A stretch of DNA of 22,165 nucleotides from a virus. Both the position numbers and the translations under genes were made by a program. The notes beneath the pieces are model-generated. The model was given only the letters and a program-made list of their open reading frames with translations, was not told where the DNA came from and ran no database searches. The first letter of the stretch is position 1. The number at the start of each line of letters is the position of its first letter. The stretch is from positions 1-22,165 of IMG/VR virus record IMGVR_UViG_3300025009_000385, one strand, 5' to 3'. Shown here in pieces: positions 2,635 through 9,305 of the stretch.

Positions 2635-3864
2635 GTGAAAAAGTTCAGCGAGTTCAGTTTTGACGAAAAGCGCAAGATGATCAGCGATGCAATCCGCGAT
2701 CTCAGGAAGAAAGCTACCCCCGGAGACTTCGATCTGTATCCGTGGATCCGCGAGATGTACGACGATCGCGCGATCGTCGAAGATGGGAAAAATCTCTTTG
2801 AGTATTCCTATATGATCGCAGCCGACGGCGCCGTGACCCTCGGGGATCCGAAGCAGGTAAAGGTGACCTACGAGGCCTTTGCCGAGATCAAGGGGATGGA
2901 GATCCTGCAGACCGGTACTCACGTTTCAGCATCAGGCTCCAAAGTCATATATGTCGAGGACGACCTGGACCAGATCATCAAAAACGCCGAGGCGCTCAAG
3001 GAAACCGTTCAACCGCCGCTCGTGGTCGGCCATGCCGAAGGAGATCTCGGCGAGCTGATCAATGCCCAGACCGTGGGGGCCCCGCAGGTCGGCTTTGTGG
3101 TGCCGACGAATCTGAGCAAAAAGAAAAACGAAGACGGCAGCTTCAGCCTGTTCGCGGACATCAAAGACGTGGCCGCCAAGGCATTGGACAAGATCGGCAC
3201 GGAGCTGAAGCGTGTATCCCCAGAGATCTACGACAATTATAAATTCGGCGACAAGGCATACGGAAAAGTACTTCGGCGGGTGTCGTTTGTGACGATTCCC
3301 TCCATAAAAACCATGGCTGACGTTACCCAGGCACACCTCGCCTTTGGCGAGACGCCGGACCAGCCTACCACATGGGTGATCTTCTCTGAGGAGAGCCCAA
3401 AGTCCACAGGAAAGGAGACACCGGAGATGTTAATCAAATTGCAGGAGAGGATCGCCGCACTCGAGACGGAGAACAAAACCCTCAAGGCGGACCGGGAGAG
3501 CGTGGCAACGAAGCTTTCCGAGGCGCAGCAGAAGCAGAAGAAGGATGAAATTCACCGTTTCTGCGATTCCCTGAAGACGGACCCCAAGGGCGCACGGATC
3601 ACCCCGGCCATGCAGGAGATGGGCCTCGAGCAGTTCATGGAGAGTCTGGACGACTCGACCGTCACGAAGTTTGGTGAAGCCAAGGACGGCAAACAGGCCG
3701 AGCTCAGCCAGCTCGGGTTCATGAAAGAGTTCCTGGGCAAGTTCGGACCGATCATACGCTTTGGCGAGACGGCACAGACCGGCTCTGGCGCAGCGCCCGA
3801 GAAGTTCGCCGAAAGCCCGCTCGTTGCCGACGCAAAGCTCCGCGCGGAAGCAGCGAAGAAATAA
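2635..3864 (+). CDS. Prohead protease with C-terminal scaffold (Mu gpI-like)
   Basis: The start is GTG 2635, behind AGGAGG at 2625-2630; an in-frame ATG at 2566 overlaps the portal gene, lacks a ribosome binding site and would translate the GGAGTTC repeat. This gives 409 aa. The N-terminal two thirds resembles the Mu I-type phage protease: 'PPLVVGHAEGD' with a candidate catalytic His, 'VGFVVPTNL', 'LFADIKDVAAKALDKIG', 'ELKRVSPEIYDNY' and 'GKVLRRVSFVTIP'. These enzymes cleave scaffold and head proteins inside the procapsid. From about residue 265 comes a heptad-rich coiled coil ('LQERIAALETENKTLKADRE') and a charged tail typical of scaffolds. It lies between portal and decoration genes, as expected. 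The catalytic residues are inferred from position, not proven. Confidence 0.82.
   Translation: MKKFSEFSFDEKRKMISDAIRDLRKKATPGDFDLYPWIREMYDDRAIVEDGKNLFEYSYMIAADGAVTLGDPKQVKVTYEAFAEIKGMEILQTGTHVSASGSKVIYVEDDLDQIIKNAEALKETVQPPLVVGHAEGDLGELINAQTVGAPQVGFVVPTNLSKKKNEDGSFSLFADIKDVAAKALDKIGTELKRVSPEIYDNYKFGDKAYGKVLRRVSFVTIPSIKTMADVTQAHLAFGETPDQPTTWVIFSEESPKSTGKETPEMLIKLQERIAALETENKTLKADRESVATKLSEAQQKQKKDEIHRFCDSLKTDPKGARITPAMQEMGLEQFMESLDDSTVTKFGEAKDGKQAELSQLGFMKEFLGKFGPIIRFGETAQTGSGAAPEKFAESPLVADAKLRAEAAKK
3427..3864 (+). CDS. Nested in-frame scaffold protein (Mu Z / lambda Nu3-like arrangement)
   Basis: ATG 3427 is in frame with the protease gene and is preceded by AAGGAG at 3412-3417, nine bases upstream. 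It sits exactly at the protease/scaffold boundary. It would give 145 aa beginning 'MLIKLQERIAALETENKTLK', i.e. the coiled-coil scaffold without the protease. Mu (I/Z) and lambda (C/Nu3) both make a separate scaffold from an internal start in the protease gene, so the arrangement has precedent. Actual use of this start is inference. Confidence 0.55.
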   Translation: MLIKLQERIAALETENKTLKADRESVATKLSEAQQKQKKDEIHRFCDSLKTDPKGARITPAMQEMGLEQFMESLDDSTVTKFGEAKDGKQAELSQLGFMKEFLGKFGPIIRFGETAQTGSGAAPEKFAESPLVADAKLRAEAAKK

Positions 3865-3888
3865 GTATAGGGCTGAGAGATTAAATCT

Positions 3889-3925
3889 ATCCTCACCCCG
3901 AGCCCTCTCCTTGAAGGAGCGGGAT
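3889..3925. repeat. Second REP-like element, degenerate
   Basis: CCTCACCCCGAGCCCTCTCC followed by TTGAAGGAGCGGG. Its layout matches the element at 1257-1294 (CCCCTCATCCC-AGCCTTCTCCCC..AAGGGG), with a short CTCC-TTGAA-GGAG hairpin. It occupies the gap between the protease and decoration genes. Confidence 0.4.
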
Positions 3926-3955
3926 GTTGTTAAACCCAGAAACAAGGAGGATCCA

Positions 3956-4792
3956 ATGTTCACCAACCGAAACCCGTTTTTCATTGCAGGGGCCATACTG
4001 GTTTCTCTGCTTCTTTTCACCGGTATGCTCATGGCAGCCGGCAGCCGGCCGGATACATTGTTCGTGGTCGTCGGACTCGGTGCTTTTGCGGTGTTTTCGA
4101 AACGAACCACGCGCCGTCTGATAGTCGGCATCGTGGGCGCTGTCTACACCGAGCCGAATTACCTGTCCGACATCATCCTGCACGAACTGGACATGGATGG
4201 ATCGCGCGAGCAGGTGACGGTCCTGTCCGGCCAGAACCTGACGATCGGCACCGTGGTCGGCAAGGTCACAATGGCAGGAGTTACCGAGACCCATGCAGGG
4301 AACACCGGCAACGGGGCTATGACGATCGACGCTGTCACTCCGAGGCTCGCAAATTGCCAGCTCGGAGTGTACAAGGCGGTCTGTATCCTCGGGGTCCCGG
4401 GCGGGGGCACTTTCCGCGTGACCGATCCCAAGGGCAACGTATTGGGCGATGTCGTCGTAGGCGGTACCTTCGAAAGCCAGATCAAGTTCGTGATAGCTGC
4501 AGGAGCTGCCGACTTCATCGAAGGCGATACGTTTCTGATCACCGTTGCAGCCGGATCCGGCAAGATCAAGATCCTTGCGCCCGCCGCGCTCGATGGCACT
4601 CAGTATGCATACGGCATCACGATCGCCGATTACGATGCGAGCTTGGCGGACCTTGCGGGCGTGCTTATCGTGCGCGATGCGATCGCGAAGACCTCGCGCC
4701 TCGTATGGCCCGGCGGAATCACTGCAGGCGAGAAGGCGACGGCATATGCCGAACTGGCAGCCAAGGACATCACGACCCGAACCGATCAGTAA
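3956..4792 (+). CDS. Head decoration protein with an N-terminal membrane-like extension
   Basis: ATG 3956 follows AAGGAGG at 3944-3950; upstream in-frame ATGs back to 3761 only translate the protease tail out of frame. The product is 278 aa. From residue 63 on it resembles lambda-D-like head decoration proteins ('YTEPNYLSDIILHELDMDGS', 'REQVTVLSGQNLTIGTVVGK', 'GITIADYDASLADLAG', 'VIVRDAIA' type ending), which trimerise on the capsid surface; its place just before the capsid gene fits. Oddly, residues 1-60 form a basic N-terminus, a strong hydrophobic segment (9-28), a second one (34-48) and a basic KRTTRR stretch, like a small membrane protein. Decoration proteins normally begin near the 'YTEPNYL' motif. 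A GTG at 4133 (residue 60) could start a normal-length protein but has no visible ribosome binding site. Confidence 0.78.
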   Translation: MFTNRNPFFIAGAILVSLLLFTGMLMAAGSRPDTLFVVVGLGAFAVFSKRTTRRLIVGIVGAVYTEPNYLSDIILHELDMDGSREQVTVLSGQNLTIGTVVGKVTMAGVTETHAGNTGNGAMTIDAVTPRLANCQLGVYKAVCILGVPGGGTFRVTDPKGNVLGDVVVGGTFESQIKFVIAAGAADFIEGDTFLITVAAGSGKIKILAPAALDGTQYAYGITIADYDASLADLAGVLIVRDAIAKTSRLVWPGGITAGEKATAYAELAAKDITTRTDQ

Positions 4793-4802
4793 GGAAATCA
4801 AG

Positions 4803-4861
4803 CGCCCTATCCCTGCAGTTGTCAGCAGCCGACCCGCATAGCGGAGCGAGGGGATAGGGAA
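4803..4861 (+). other. Long-loop hairpin between decoration and capsid genes
   Basis: CCCTATCCC (4805-4813) is perfectly complementary to GGGATAGGG (4851-4859) across a 37-base loop. There is no U-tract, so it is not an ordinary terminator. It lies just upstream of the capsid ribosome binding site and could affect mRNA stability or the decoration/capsid ratio; that is inference. Confidence 0.4.
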
Positions 4862-4892
4862 CCATAAATCACAATCGAACAAGGAGGAAACC

Positions 4893-5906
4893 ATGTTTCC
4901 CAATCTTTTAAACGATCCCGCATTCAACAGCGCTTCACTGACTGCGGCGATCAATCACCTGCCGAACAATTACGGCAGGATGGTCAAGTCCAATCTTTTC
5001 CCCATCAAGGGAGTTGCCACGCGAGCCATCGTCATCGAGGAGTATCAGGGCGTACTTACCCTGCTTCCGACGAAGCCCCTCGGCGCCCCCGGGTCCACGG
5101 GCAAGTCCGGCAAGCGCAAGGTCCGCACCTTTTCAATTCTTCACATCCCGCACGATGATTCTCTCCTGGCCGCGGACGTGGCAGGCGTACGGTCCTTCGG
5201 GTCAGAGACGGAGCTGCAGGTGTTCTCGGCAGCGGTGAACGACAAGCTATCGGCAATGAAGAACAAGCACATGATCACCCTGGAGCATCTCCAGATGGGT
5301 GCGATACGCGGCACCATCCTGGACGCCGATGCCTCGACGCTCTACAACCTCTATACTGAGTTCGAGATCGTCCAGAAGGTCGTTGACTTCGTGCTCGGCA
5401 CGGACACGACCAAGGTCGCGAACAAATGCCGAGAGGTTGTGCGTCACATCGAAGAAAACCTCAATGGCGAAGTCATGAGCGGCGTGCGCGCCCTCGTTTC
5501 CGAGGAGTTCTACGACAAGCTGGTCACCCACCCTCTTGTTAAGGAAGCGTATGCAGGCTGGTCCGCGGCACAGGACCGTATTGGAGGAGATCTCCGCAAG
5601 GGGTTCACTTTCGGCGGGATCACTTTTGAAGAGTACGTCGGCAAGGCTCCGGATGCGGACGGTGTCTCCCGCAGGTTCATCGCTGCCCAGGAAGGGCATG
5701 CTTTCCCCGAGGGCACGACCGAGACATTCGCAACGCACTGCGCGCCTGCGGATTTCATCGAGACGGTGAACACGAAGGGCGTTCACATCTATGCAAAACA
5801 GGAGCCGATGAAGTTCGGCCGCGGCGTGGATCTTCACACCCAGTCGAACCCGCTGCCGCTTTGTCATCGGCCCGCGGTGCTGGTGAAGCTCCATACCAGC
5901 AACTAA
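4893..5906 (+). CDS. Major capsid protein, E family
   Basis: 337 aa from ATG 4893 after AAGGAGG. Length and pattern fit the phage major capsid protein E family (HK97 fold, lambda gpE type): N-terminal arm 'NYGRMVKSNLFPIKGVATR', 'IEEYQGVLTLLPTKP', the charged 'GKSGKRKVRTFSILHIPHDD', a central helix region with 'LNGEVMSGVRALVSEEFYDK', 'FTFGGITFEEYVG', and the C-terminal 'AHAFPEGTTETFATHCAPAD'-like segment (seen as GHAFPEGTTETF). It assembles as the hexamers and pentamers of the head. It is preceded by the decoration gene and followed by a strong hairpin, consistent with a highly expressed unit ending here. No N-terminal propeptide is obvious. Confidence 0.93.
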   Translation: MFPNLLNDPAFNSASLTAAINHLPNNYGRMVKSNLFPIKGVATRAIVIEEYQGVLTLLPTKPLGAPGSTGKSGKRKVRTFSILHIPHDDSLLAADVAGVRSFGSETELQVFSAAVNDKLSAMKNKHMITLEHLQMGAIRGTILDADASTLYNLYTEFEIVQKVVDFVLGTDTTKVANKCREVVRHIEENLNGEVMSGVRALVSEEFYDKLVTHPLVKEAYAGWSAAQDRIGGDLRKGFTFGGITFEEYVGKAPDADGVSRRFIAAQEGHAFPEGTTETFATHCAPADFIETVNTKGVHIYAKQEPMKFGRGVDLHTQSNPLPLCHRPAVLVKLHTSN

Positions 5907-5918
5907 TCTCTAAGGAAG

Positions 5919-5949
5919 GGAAGGGACGGGACGACCGTCCCTTCCGTTT
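5919..5949 (+). terminator. Intrinsic terminator-like hairpin after the capsid gene
   Basis: GGAAGGGACGG (5919-5929), loop GACGA, and CCGTCCCTTCC (5935-5945) form a perfect 11-bp stem, followed by GTTTA. The U-tract is short, so read-through into the gp36-like gene is likely and it may act as an attenuator. A second small hairpin ACGGTT-CA-AACCGT lies at 5961-5974. Confidence 0.6.
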
Positions 5950-5990
5950 AAACAGATGCAACGGTTCAAACCGTTTAAGCGGAGAAGTAC

Positions 5991-6446
5991 ATGTCCTACT
6001 GCACAAAGACAGACATCCTGAACCTCGAGCTCACCGAGGCCGAGTTGGTCCGTGTGACCGACGACAAAAAGCTGAACGAGGTGGATGCGGCAAAGGTGGC
6101 CGCGGCGATCGCGAAGGCCGATGCGGACATCGACGCGTATTGCCAGGCGCAGTATACCGTCCCGTTCAGCCCCGTGCCGACGATCGTCATGGGATGGTCC
6201 GCAACCCTGGCCGCGTTCAATTTGTTCCGGAACCAGCAGAAGCCGGCGACGCTGGTAGACCGGTACAACAAGGTCATGTCCTGGCTGAAATCGATCTCAG
6301 AGGGCAAGAGCGCGATCCCGGGCGTGACCAACGACGCTCTCAGCCTGCCGGCCAGCACGACCGAGGATTACGAGCCGGTGTTCAAGCGGGAGCAGAAAGA
6401 CAGCAGCGGAGCCGTGCTCGAAAAAGGCACGATGGAAATCTGGTAG
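5991..6446 (+). CDS. Head-tail connector, DUF1320 (Mu gp36-like)
   Basis: 151 aa, the usual size for the DUF1320/gp36 family. It starts 'MSYCTKTDILNLELTEAELV', which is the typical 'Y.t..dl.....e..l..lt' opening, followed by 'VAAAIAKADADIDAYCQAQY' and 'VPFSPVPTIV', where the family has an Asp-rich helix and a conserved Y..PF..P..... turn. Such proteins are thought to form a ring or plug between the portal and the tail. The ribosome binding site GGAG lies at 5981-5984. It is the last recognisable head gene before the secreted protein gene. Confidence 0.82.
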   Translation: MSYCTKTDILNLELTEAELVRVTDDKKLNEVDAAKVAAAIAKADADIDAYCQAQYTVPFSPVPTIVMGWSATLAAFNLFRNQQKPATLVDRYNKVMSWLKSISEGKSAIPGVTNDALSLPASTTEDYEPVFKREQKDSSGAVLEKGTMEIW

Positions 6447-6471
6447 TAAACCCAACACACGGAGGAATGAA

Positions 6472-6975
6472 ATGAAAAGATTACTCGTAATAGCAACTTT
6501 GGTTTTGTCCGTTCTAGGCGTGGCAATCCCCGCATCCGCGGCGAACCTGCTCTACAGCATGCCCACGATGACCGCCCTGGCCACCGGCCTTACCGGGTCC
6601 ATCAGCGGCACCGCGGGCGCTGCGGTGATCAGCGGACCCACGCTCACCCTTTCCCAGGCGGGCACTTATTCTTTGTCCAGTATGGTGACCACCAGCACCG
6701 CGGCCTCCACGTTCTCAACTGCCCAGACAGCAAAATGCTGGCTCTACCGGACCAATAATACGCCCGGGGTGGTAGCCAATACCACTGCCGCGGTCGTATT
6801 CCCGATCATGACCACGCTGTCCATTCCCGGGCCTACGGTCGCGATCCCGCCCACATGGTACTCGACCTCGAACAGCGACGACGCTATCAAGGTCTATTGT
6901 TCCATCTCTGCAAATCCCAGCGCCGGAGAAGTGGACGTCACCGCTGTCTCGATGATGGGCCAACGGTTCAAGTAA
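6472..6975 (+). CDS. Secreted protein of unknown function with a signal peptide
   Basis: 167 aa after GGAGG. Residues 1-23 are a clear Sec signal peptide (MKRLL, hydrophobic core, 'IPASA' cleavage motif). The mature part is rich in Thr/Ser/Ala/Val with alternating hydrophobic residues ('SGTAGAAVISGPTLTLSQAG') and looks like an all-beta exported protein; two cysteines flank the middle and end of the chain. I do not recognise the family. A signal-peptide gene among head and connector genes is unexpected: it could modify the host envelope (for example superinfection exclusion) or be a virion protein whose leader is incidental. The gene is followed by a terminator-like hairpin, suggesting it can be separately controlled. 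Confidence 0.7.
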   Translation: MKRLLVIATLVLSVLGVAIPASAANLLYSMPTMTALATGLTGSISGTAGAAVISGPTLTLSQAGTYSLSSMVTTSTAASTFSTAQTAKCWLYRTNNTPGVVANTTAAVVFPIMTTLSIPGPTVAIPPTWYSTSNSDDAIKVYCSISANPSAGEVDVTAVSMMGQRFK

Positions 6976-7367: not shown

Positions 7368-7820
7368 ATGCCCCCGGTCCTGAAAGTAAATTTAGATCCG
7401 CTCAAGAAGTTCGATGCCGTGCTCGACGCTATCAGGAACAACGGCAAGAAGTTGGAGCCCGCGTTCAAGGCATCCGGGCTGATTGCCATGGAAAGCGTAA
7501 ACAGGAACTTCATAGAGGGCGGCAGGCCGGAGAAGTGGAAGTCCCTTGCCCCGATCACCATACGCCAGCGCCGGGGGAACGGCAACCCCCAGCCCCTGCG
7601 CGACAGCGGCGTGATGATGTCCTCGGTCGGCGTGCCGGCAGCCGGCGGCGTGTTCGAACTCAAGCCCCTGACAGTCCGGGTCGGCACGAACGTGCCCCAG
7701 GCCGGAGCGCACAATGAAGGCATCGGGGTGCCGAAGCGAGAATTCATGGTCCTGCAGCCAGAGGACGAGGACAACATTCAAAAAGTTTTTGCGGAGCATA
7801 TGGCCGGGGGAACGGGATGA
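7368..7820 (+). CDS. Phage virion morphogenesis protein (Mu gpG-like)
   Basis: 150 aa. The pattern of the virion morphogenesis/tail completion family is visible: an N-terminal helix region 'LDAIRNNGKKLEPAFKASG', 'IAMESVNRNFIEGGRPEKWK', then 'TIRQRRGNGNPQPLRDSGVM' (the common 'L.~tG.L..S' element), and 'VGTNVPQAGAHNEG' followed by 'VPKREFM', the typical 'Y...h..G....~p~R.f'. These proteins act in head completion or tail joining. The stop codon overlaps the next start (ATGA), so the two genes are translationally coupled. Confidence 0.85.
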   Translation: MPPVLKVNLDPLKKFDAVLDAIRNNGKKLEPAFKASGLIAMESVNRNFIEGGRPEKWKSLAPITIRQRRGNGNPQPLRDSGVMMSSVGVPAAGGVFELKPLTVRVGTNVPQAGAHNEGIGVPKREFMVLQPEDEDNIQKVFAEHMAGGTG

Positions 7821-8251
7821 AGACGCTCCAGGTAGAAATGCAGAAGCGCATCGCCGCCCGAGTGGGCTACCTGGGCAACGCCGTGCATCTGATTCCCGAC
7901 GAGAACTTGCTTCCCTCCGGGACACAGTTCCCCTGCGTGGGCCTGAAGGATGGGCCTATCAAACATGTATACAGGCTGGGGATGACGAGGAAAAAGAGCG
8001 AACTTCAGGTCGATATTTTCTGCTACGTGGTAATCACGAACATGGAGACGGTCATGATAAACGGCGTTCCCGGGGATCCTGGGATACTAGATCTGACCGA
8101 TGCCGTTCGGGAGTCCATCGAGAAGTGGAGCCCGGACGGATACACGTGGGAGAACGGGGACGTGGACGAGACAGAATCCGTCACCGTCAAGGCCGAGGAC
8201 GACGGCAGGGTGCAGCGGAAGTCGTTCCGAATGAAGTGGCGAAAGGGGTGA
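7817..8251 (+). CDS. Probable tail terminator / gp37-like tail completion protein
   Basis: 144 aa, overlapping the previous stop by four bases. It has the size and place of the minor tail protein that caps the tail tube in siphoviruses or of Mu gp37-like proteins: an N-terminal helix 'LQVEMQKRIAARVG', then a beta-rich body with 'FPCVGLKDGPIKHVYRLGMT' and 'LQVDIFCYVVI', and an Arg/Lys-rich end 'VQRKSFRMKWRKG'. The order gp36-like, gpG-like, this gene supports a head-tail joining role. Assignment is by position and general pattern, not a diagnostic motif. Confidence 0.6.
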   Translation: MKTLQVEMQKRIAARVGYLGNAVHLIPDENLLPSGTQFPCVGLKDGPIKHVYRLGMTRKKSELQVDIFCYVVITNMETVMINGVPGDPGILDLTDAVRESIEKWSPDGYTWENGDVDETESVTVKAEDDGRVQRKSFRMKWRKG

Positions 8252-8255
8252 TGCG

Positions 8256-9002
8256 ATGAAAGATCTCATTCTCGATAGAAGCCACAAGCGCGGCGATTCC
8301 GGAGACAAGGTCCGGCTGATCCAGGAATGGCTCTGCCTCCATGGTTTTTCCATTCCCGTCGACGGCGAGTTCGGCGCAGCAACCGACCTGGCGGTCAAAC
8401 AGTTTCAGCAGAAAATGTCTTTGGCCGTCGATGGAGAGGTAGGAAACAATACATTCTCGATTCTTGTCCAGCCGATGGTCCGGGCAATAGAAAAAATGCA
8501 GGCGGTAAGAAGCCACACCTCGATTGGCAGCCTGGTCGCGGCCTACGCCATGCAACACTTGAGGCAGTCCCCCCGGGAAGTCGGCGGGCAGAACATGGGT
8601 CCCTGGGTGCGCTACTACACAGGGGGATACCAGGGCAAAGAGTACGCCTGGTGCGCGGGCTTCGTCTGCACGATCCTCCGCCAGGCCTGCGAGACGCTCG
8701 AGCTCGAGATGCCGGTCCCGTTCACGCTCTCCTGCGACACGCTCGCGATCGAGGCGAAAAAGGCAGGGCTGTTTGTGCCGGAAACCGAGGCACGGGGCAA
8801 GGCTCGCATCGGTTCACTCTTCCTCGTCCGGCGCACAGACAGCGACTGGACGCACGTCGGCATAGTCACGCAGGCCCAAGCCGACGCCGACGCATTCAGC
8901 ACCATCGAGGGCAATACCAACGACAGCGGCGACCGCGAGGGATACGAGGTCTGCGAGCGGGCGCGTGGCTACGGGAAAAAGGATTTTATCGTCTGGCGGT
9001 AG
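8256..9002 (+). CDS. Endolysin: peptidoglycan-binding domain plus Cys/His cell-wall hydrolase domain
   Basis: 248 aa. Residues 5-75 form a PG_binding_1 domain ('GDSGDKVRLIQEWL', 'FSIPVDGEFGAATDLAVKQF', 'LAVDGEVGNNT'). Residues 110-248 resemble a CHAP/NlpC-P60-type domain with the expected catalytic elements: C133 in 'YAWCAGFVC', H200 in 'DWTHVGIV', and N220 in 'IEGNTN'. Such enzymes cut amide or peptide bonds of murein at lysis. There is no signal peptide, so holin-mediated release is expected, and a holin candidate follows 36 bases later. It could instead be virion-associated, but position favours lysis. A four-base gap to the tail gene upstream suggests one operon. Confidence 0.87.
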   Translation: MKDLILDRSHKRGDSGDKVRLIQEWLCLHGFSIPVDGEFGAATDLAVKQFQQKMSLAVDGEVGNNTFSILVQPMVRAIEKMQAVRSHTSIGSLVAAYAMQHLRQSPREVGGQNMGPWVRYYTGGYQGKEYAWCAGFVCTILRQACETLELEMPVPFTLSCDTLAIEAKKAGLFVPETEARGKARIGSLFLVRRTDSDWTHVGIVTQAQADADAFSTIEGNTNDSGDREGYEVCERARGYGKKDFIVWR

Positions 9003-9038
9003 TCGAGAAGTTAACAGTATTAAAACATGGAGGTGCCT

Positions 9039-9305
9039 ATGGGTTTCTGGACAAAGGTTTTCGCATCCGGCGGGGAGCAGTCCTGGGGCAGGGTAGCCGC
9101 ATCCCTGGCCCTGGCATTCTCCTGCTTCTGGGTGACACTCCTGGTCCTCAAGTTCACCAGCCCGGACCAGTACGAAAAGCTCTACCCCCTGGGCGCGTTC
9201 ATCCTCTCTCTCGGCACCTTCGTCGGATCGCTCTACTGGATCAGCAAGCGCTACGAAACCATACAGAAGCAGGCAGAGAAAAAAGAAGAGGACCCAAAGC
9301 CATGA
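9039..9305 (+). CDS. Holin candidate, two membrane segments
   Basis: 88 aa from ATG 9039, which has GGAGGT at 9029-9034; the in-frame ATG 9027 overlaps that site and is rejected. Two hydrophobic segments are seen (about residues 18-38 'VAASLALAFSCFWVTLLVLK' and 50-67 'GAFILSLGTFVGSLYWIS'), with a charged C-terminus ('KQAEKKEEDPKP'). Small size, two segments, charged tail and the place directly after the endolysin fit a class II holin. No family motif was recognised. Its stop overlaps the next start. Confidence 0.68.
   Translation: MGFWTKVFASGGEQSWGRVAASLALAFSCFWVTLLVLKFTSPDQYEKLYPLGAFILSLGTFVGSLYWISKRYETIQKQAEKKEEDPKP

Follow-up and report, generated by a model that had tools for sequence, protein, structure and literature searches.

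The locus studied here raises the question of why a protein of the capsid surface should begin with what looks like a membrane segment. The window, by which we mean the whole stretch of DNA analysed, comprises positions 1 to 22,165 of the IMG/VR virus record IMGVR_UViG_3300025009_000385, and within its head and tail cassette an open reading frame (ORF) at 3956-4792 (+) encodes a decoration protein of 278 residues whose translation begins MFTNRNPFFIAGAILVSLLLFTGMLMAAGSRPDTLFVVVGLGAFAVFSKRTTRRLIVGIVGAVYTEPNYL. A preliminary description of this gene had noted about 60 residues with two hydrophobic stretches and a basic patch ahead of YTEPNYL, and had suggested that such a protein could tether procapsids to the membrane or that the extra residues may be removed by the prohead protease. 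As set out below, the ORF product belongs to the lambda gpD type of decoration proteins and carries, ahead of YTEPNYL, a hydrophobic extension of 63 residues. The feature is very probably real and part of a recurrent pattern, an artefact being very unlikely, and predicted membrane leaders on capsid-shell proteins recur in other phages, one kind of them being apparently portable.

A gpD-type decoration protein with a hydrophobic extension

That the gene encodes a decoration protein with a membrane-like N-terminal segment, as first described, is supported by domain family, predicted fold and gene order. The protein matches HDPD (PF02924, the lambda gpD family) with 96 bits against a curated cut-off of 29.1 (E 2e-27) and the head decoration family phrog_49 over residues 65-276 (E 1.3e-17), and its gene stands after that of the head maturation protease and before that of the major capsid protein, which is the usual site of a decoration gene. 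In an AlphaFold model of the protein (mean predicted local distance difference test score, pLDDT, 87.8), the decoration domain is confident and residues 7-27 form a helix of moderate confidence. Fold matches of this model in the PDB include gpD (1c5e, Z 10.9 over 95 residues), phage 21 SHP (1td3, Z 11.9) and the Sf14 capsid chain 9c2d_K (Z 14.2 over 115 residues), which is presumably gp33. Further, residues 60-275 of the model align with residues 3-110 of chain J0 in the mature lambda virion entry 8xqb (Z 10.5), a chain that from its length and fold should be gpD, so that in the model the extension ends where gpD itself, with its N-terminal arm, begins. A plain Foldseek search placed flagellar FlgL at the top and the best capsid-decoration chain eighth (E 0.018), and a sequence search of solved structures returned one chance-level match (E 0.62). 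The genes, signal and domains concerned are the following.

2635-3864, + strand: head maturation protease gene just upstream (phrog_976, E 4.7e-28)
3944-3950, + strand: AAGGAGG, the Shine-Dalgarno site serving the extended start (read from the sequence; duplex energy of -11.4 kcal/mol)
3956-4792, + strand: extended decoration protein gene, 278 residues plus stop (PF02924, phrog_49, codon usage)
4145-4789, + strand: lambda gpD-type decoration domain, residues 64-278 (PF02924, E 2e-27; phrog_49; 1c5e, Z 10.9)
4274-4549, + strand: inserted beta domain in the decoration domain, residues 107-198 (predicted fold like part of FlgL/FlgK and Wzc)
4893-5906, + strand: major capsid protein gene, lambda gpE family, downstream and without an extension (PF03864, E 1.1e-109, residues 13-333)

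The likeness of the inserted beta domain reaches Z 10.5 with part of FlgL and up to 7.7 with Wzc. Its pattern GNTGNG...ADFI-GD is seemingly duplicated in the corresponding ORF (3885-4967) of L009, a relative described below, and is present in other phage ORFs too.

Counting as a hydrophobic segment any 15-residue stretch with a Kyte-Doolittle mean of at least 1.7, we found that the extension passes this threshold twice, at residues 8-22 (2.57) and residues 34-48 (2.27), and that the basic patch reads SKRTTRR, in agreement with the layout first described. A third, short hydrophobic run (LIVGIVGAV), which adds to the two stretches already noted, lies directly ahead of YTEPNYL. The charges, +1 at the N-terminus, 0 in the loop and +3 after the second segment, fit a hairpin with both ends inside. 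As for the features of a Sec signal peptide, a basic n-region and a hydrophobic core are present, the cleavage site is ambiguous when judged by eye, and a further hydrophobic run follows. Searches of Pfam and PHROGs assigned the extension to no family (best Pfam match E 0.085; no PHROGs match at E 1), and seven other extensions searched in the same way likewise gave no credible family (best E 0.078 and 0.037). The parts of the window extension are listed below.

3956-4144, + strand: N-terminal membrane-like extension, residues 1-63 (translation, hydropathy, start signal, codon usage)
3977-4042, + strand: first of the hydrophobic segments, predicted to be helical at roughly residues 8-29 (hydropathy; residues 7-27 helical in the model)
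4049-4051, + strand: Pro32, turn between the hydrophobic segments, invariant in the four-protein alignment A2 (alignment A2)
4055-4099, + strand: second hydrophobic segment, residues 34-48 (hydropathy; the model has low confidence there)
4097-4117, + strand: basic patch SKRTTRR, residues 48-54, within a stretch missing from the other three A2 proteins (alignment A2, hydropathy scan)
4118-4144, + strand: short hydrophobic run LIVGIVGAV before the decoration domain, including the rejected start GTG 4133 (translation, start energies)

Translation very probably begins at the extended start

The preliminary description had placed the only good ribosome binding site at the extended start, and the start energies agree: AAGGAGG lies five bases upstream of ATG 3956 and gives a duplex energy of -11.4 kcal/mol, compared with -1.7 kcal/mol for GTG 4133 and -5.0 for the best other internal start of the extension. 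Over 3956-4138 the codon log-odds are +0.242 per codon in the ORF frame, the other five frames ranging from -0.003 (minus strand) to -1.026, and the decoration domain in the same frame scores +0.431 per codon. We conclude that the extended start at 3956 is very probably the real start. The alternative, that the extension is untranslated and initiation occurs at GTG 4133 or another internal codon, would agree with the unextended relatives, which start just ahead of the TE motif; against it stand the weak GTG 4133, a codon usage that favours the frame of the extension, the lack of a consistent internal start among the extended relatives and the purifying selection found in a second type of module (see below). 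We therefore consider it highly improbable, and initiation at GTG 4133, which had been named as one of two findings that would undo the initial reading, is not borne out by the sequence evidence.

The fusion could also have arisen by an assembly error or frameshift that joined a small membrane gene to the decoration gene, and 4080-4140 had been singled out as the place to check. A second contig (L002), from almost the same phage, carries the same fusion, with extension DNA identical to that of the window in the stretch compared, which speaks against a frameshift there as far as it goes, L002 being possibly from a related sample and hence not fully independent. In addition, the frame is open and fused across extension and domain in five diverged relatives (L009, L016, L018, L085 and L088). 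A comparison with relatives for a separate small membrane protein at this locus had also been proposed. In 138 unextended loci (four others were short of flank and one, on the other strand, was omitted), we looked for ORFs that encode 30-150 residues, carry a ribosome-binding motif, reach a hydropathy peak of 2.2 and end at most 400 bases upstream, and found no genuine case, the single computed match (L084) being the decoration frame itself. A frameshift or assembly artefact is thus rejected by L002 and the five diverged relatives, and we regard it as scarcely credible. Over the stretch compared, the sole difference between L002 and the window is a 9-base in-frame deletion near the C-terminus of the decoration protein (window 4670-4678, L002 near 5715), which adjoins a short GCGATGCGATCGCGA-like repeat.

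Extensions of the same layout in diverged relatives

A profile of alignment A2 retrieved 154 distinct decoration ORFs, some of them partial and the sample being biased by the queries. When the extended class was called from the start with the best ribosome-binding motif, 11 of the 154 rows, representing about nine lineages, were extended. Two hydrophobic segments within the first 60 residues occur in none of the 143 unextended ORFs, and a single one in 35 of them; the layout of the window therefore exceeds chance.

Of the five diverged relatives, L009 is a Thermodesulfovibrionales metagenome-assembled genome whose capsid protein is 76% identical to that of the window and whose extension is MEMFKGLGKAGLLVVALLLFVGLLALASVSPMAASIGSFMLIGLGTVYTES; in L016 and L018, two further genomes from the class of L009, the corresponding position is likewise occupied by a hydrophobic extension, as it is in the IMG/VR contigs L085, which is 69% identical over query residues 60-275, and L088. 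All five share a short positive N-terminus, a strong hydrophobic segment, a turn, a weaker hydrophobic stretch and a TE domain start. Identity among the extensions is low and the layout is retained; in alignment A2 (four proteins) a single proline, located between the hydrophobic stretches, is invariant. Start energies are -10.8 kcal/mol or stronger in four of the five; L088, with -5.6 and a divergent domain, is the weakest case. A comparison of the L085 and window extensions (43 codons) gave a ratio of nonsynonymous to synonymous substitution rates (dN/dS) of 0.93/2.58, which is saturated and was discarded.

Within the class to which L009 belongs, HDPD matches occur in 9 of 230 genomes, and three of these nine are extended. 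The other six have open frames of 91-217 residues: three were read and are unextended, and three with 118, 124 and 135 residues (L201, L202 and L204, judged from open-frame length only) leave little or no room for an extension. Among named phages and plasmids, the window protein has 3 phage and 7 plasmid matches, all from residue 63 or later, and the protein of L138, which bears the second type of module, matches 9 phage and 5 plasmid records from residue 105 or later; among named phages the L009 protein matches 24 records from residue 49 or later. Named homologues that match in the domain only may still bear a different extension of their own; the three whose N-termini were read (L010, L011 and L012) are unextended. 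A prophage of Paraburkholderia terrae BS437, in the part of its published account cited here, has a 310-residue protein with 16% coverage by head decoration protein D that adjoins protease and capsid genes (PMC5567305); it might be another extended decoration protein and is not used as evidence.

A second type of module, also ahead of a major capsid protein

In L090, L138 and L148 the proteins are extended by ~100 residues, which comprise two hydrophobic segments and, in the long loop between them, a conserved motif with the consensus GMGFEHEQPWR (alignment A6), which is altered in L212. Two module scans, built on patterns from conserved stretches and so blind to modules without these, returned the same 12 contigs in eight lineages, seven with the module ahead of decoration proteins and one (L214) with it ahead of a capsid protein; ten of the 12 were read, L139 and L213 being counted as near copies of read ones by match. 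In L214, at 4992-6710 (+), the module precedes a scaffold-like helix and an HK97-type major capsid protein (Phage_capsid PF05065, residues 265-556, E 3e-32), with the caveat that an internal ATG at 5568 (-6.1 kcal/mol) could start the capsid protein without module and scaffold-like helix. Neither the recurrence of the window extension in other phages nor this second kind of module, present also on a major capsid protein, was part of the preliminary description.

The second-type module is under purifying selection, with dN/dS of 0.24-0.44 as against 0.28-0.42 for the domain (six pairs among six sequences), and the starts of all eight lineages lie between -6.8 and -8.8 kcal/mol. Three of these extensions gave no credible Pfam or PHROGs match, and no match was found for the L090 and L207 modules among named phages or for the L214 module among named plasmids, these being the combinations searched. 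An AlphaFold model of the L207 protein (mean pLDDT 64.2, predicted template modelling score 0.38) was discarded. The window extension is without the GMGFEHEQPWR motif, and as inspection showed no other shared motif, the two appear to be analogous and apparently unrelated, the window leader not being a member of the second type.

Other genes of the cassette

The cassette of the window runs from a Mu-type portal fused to a Mu F-like part through protease, decoration and capsid genes to a Mu Gp36-type connector and tail genes, and the window also has a gene labelled integrase-like from sequence reading only. Between connector and tail genes, 6472-6975 (+) encodes a protein of 167 residues that begins like a signal peptide, MKRLLVIATLVLSVLGVAIPASA (judged by eye and from hydropathy), and gave no Pfam or PHROG match at E 0.01. 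L085, the closest diverged relative with the extension, encodes two signal-peptide-like proteins in its head-tail cassette (7711-8115 and 8111-9064, +), of which one contains a Laminin_G_3 domain; L009 has a protein of similar appearance (8349-9038) that does not begin in this way.

A possible membrane-targeting leader

We posit that the extension is a translated membrane-targeting leader by which the decoration protein is retained at the inner membrane until cleavage frees its N-terminal arm, a reading that we consider plausible, if somewhat short of probable. We infer membrane insertion, topology, retention, cleavage and a protease that does the cutting. The leader would carry the newly made decoration protein to the inner membrane, in the simplest topology as a two-helix hairpin with the decoration domain in the cytoplasm, and retention there would keep the protein from premature lattice formation. 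A cut near the junction, at about residues 57-66, would then free the arm through which decoration trimers are connected once the head has expanded. In the cited passages, the auxiliary proteins of lambda, YSD1 and P23-45 are joined by N-terminal hook extensions (PMC11445458), and Sf14 gp33 builds its lattice via N-terminal arms (PMC11821841). Because the extension stands directly before the trimer-linking arm, it is probably cut off, removal having been raised in the preliminary description as well.

The tethering of procapsids to the inner membrane during assembly, as first suggested, gains some support from the second-type module on the major capsid protein of L214. Lambda gpD, however, adds to heads after expansion, and the capsid protein of the window phage has no extension. 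Further, JBD30, whose decoration protein has a Soc-like fold, is described as having no decoration protein on its procapsid, the binding sites arising only on expansion (PMC11445458, in part). A tether of this kind is thus less well supported and, in our judgement, decidedly unlikely; expanding or filled heads would be the more natural target of a decoration protein held at the membrane. Because a hydrophobic leader on the arm must be removed or accommodated, retention followed by cleavage is favoured over a procapsid tether. In the HK97 capsid protein the N-terminal helix lies inside the procapsid, and the L214 leader is therefore more readily seen as a removable prodomain than as a permanent anchor, provided that the start at 5568 is not the one used.

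If the anchor were kept, the protein could act in the membrane, for example in superinfection exclusion, or the virions could carry the anchor and associate with lipid. Consistent with this, no conserved cleavage motif was seen at the junction by eye, and the domain is otherwise intact. As a candidate cut motif, the letters S/T-E found at the junction are uninformative, because unextended proteins have them too. On the other hand, this gene alone separates the protease gene from the capsid protein gene, which is where a decoration gene normally lies, and hundreds of exposed hydrophobic hairpins per virion would presumably be unusual, so that we hold a kept anchor to be quite improbable.

The main rival to membrane retention is Sec export: the extension would serve as a signal peptide that takes the decoration protein to the periplasm or the cell surface, where it might coat heads once the cell has lysed or have some other role. 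The basic N-terminus, the hydrophobic core and the small residues at possible cut sites in several members (by eye, ALA in L016, ASA in L018 and x-A before A/L/M-P in most second-type modules) agree with export, as do the signal-peptide-like gene at 6472-6975 in the same head-tail cassette and the two more in L085. Against export, there is more hydrophobic sequence beyond the possible cut sites, the window is by eye without a good small-x-small site after the first helix, and phage heads mature in the cytoplasm. The charge pattern fits an inside hairpin in the window, is neutral on the point in L009 and L016 and does not fit in the second type, which leaves room for export, in our view an unlikely but real contender.

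Several findings weigh against a membrane-retained, later cleaved leader as a general account. No leader is present in 143 of the 154 decoration ORFs found, and the window model has low confidence (pLDDT <50) at residues 44-53. Among the six window-type proteins, only those of the window, L009 and L016 pass the hydrophobicity threshold twice, the second segment of L009 being borderline (1.71), and L018, L085 and L088 pass it once, a layout that a signal peptide fits equally well. For L009 and L016, with a charge of -1 following the second segment, only the N-termini bear on topology, and the loop charge of +3 to +5 in the second type disfavours a hairpin with the decoration domain inside; the two leader types may work differently. 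Some internal starts are far from weak (L085 ATG codon 14, -7.7; L088 codons 27 and 20, -6.3 and -6.1; L090 codon 63, -6.5). Lastly, the proteases of the extended phages differ (phrog_976 in the window, S49 in L018 and L214, Clp-type in L138), which argues against one shared prohead-protease cut.

Relation to known systems and significance

The window protein resembles lambda gpD and its HDPD kin (also phage 21 SHP, YSD1 and Sf14 gp33) in domain family, predicted fold and gene order, and differs from them by the 63-residue membrane-like extension before the arm and by the beta insert at 107-198. Outer decoration proteins are generally seen as soluble cement that binds expanded heads (in part PMC11445458). 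A 2011 review, in the passages cited, gives prohead-membrane association as demonstrated only for T4 (PMC3185693); SPN3US followed later, its proheads sitting on the inner membrane and their release depending on the prohead protease (PMC7411985, in part). With both, the proposed leader would share a link between head maturation and the inner membrane and a proteolytic release (PMC3185693, PMC7411985). In T4, however, a membrane scaffolding protein contacts the connector (PMC3185693), whereas the window has a putative hydrophobic leader on the decoration protein instead, and the SPN3US passages name no anchor and no hydrophobic leader on a decoration protein (PMC7411985). The head-protein propeptides of T4 and SPN3US are alike in being N-terminal pieces removed during head maturation, yet as described in part they are capsid-targeting and sit on shell, portal and internal proteins (PMC5694885), whereas the window extension is hydrophobic and on an outer-surface protein. 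Comparable to the proposed leader is that of the filamentous-phage coat protein, which a cellular peptidase removes after membrane insertion (PMC3185693, in part), with the difference that filamentous virions assemble at the membrane and the window is from a tailed phage with an icosahedral-type head cassette. Titles and abstract openings of the open-access literature, among the matches listed, name no such leader, subscription papers lying mostly outside this scope.

Overall, it is possible, if on the doubtful side, that these extensions are portable membrane-targeting prodomains on tailed-phage shell proteins, and that coating or maturation of heads at the inner membrane, gated by leader removal, extends beyond T4 and the giant phages. 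If so, some phage heads would be coated or matured at the inner membrane, and formation of the decoration lattice may be gated by proteolysis.
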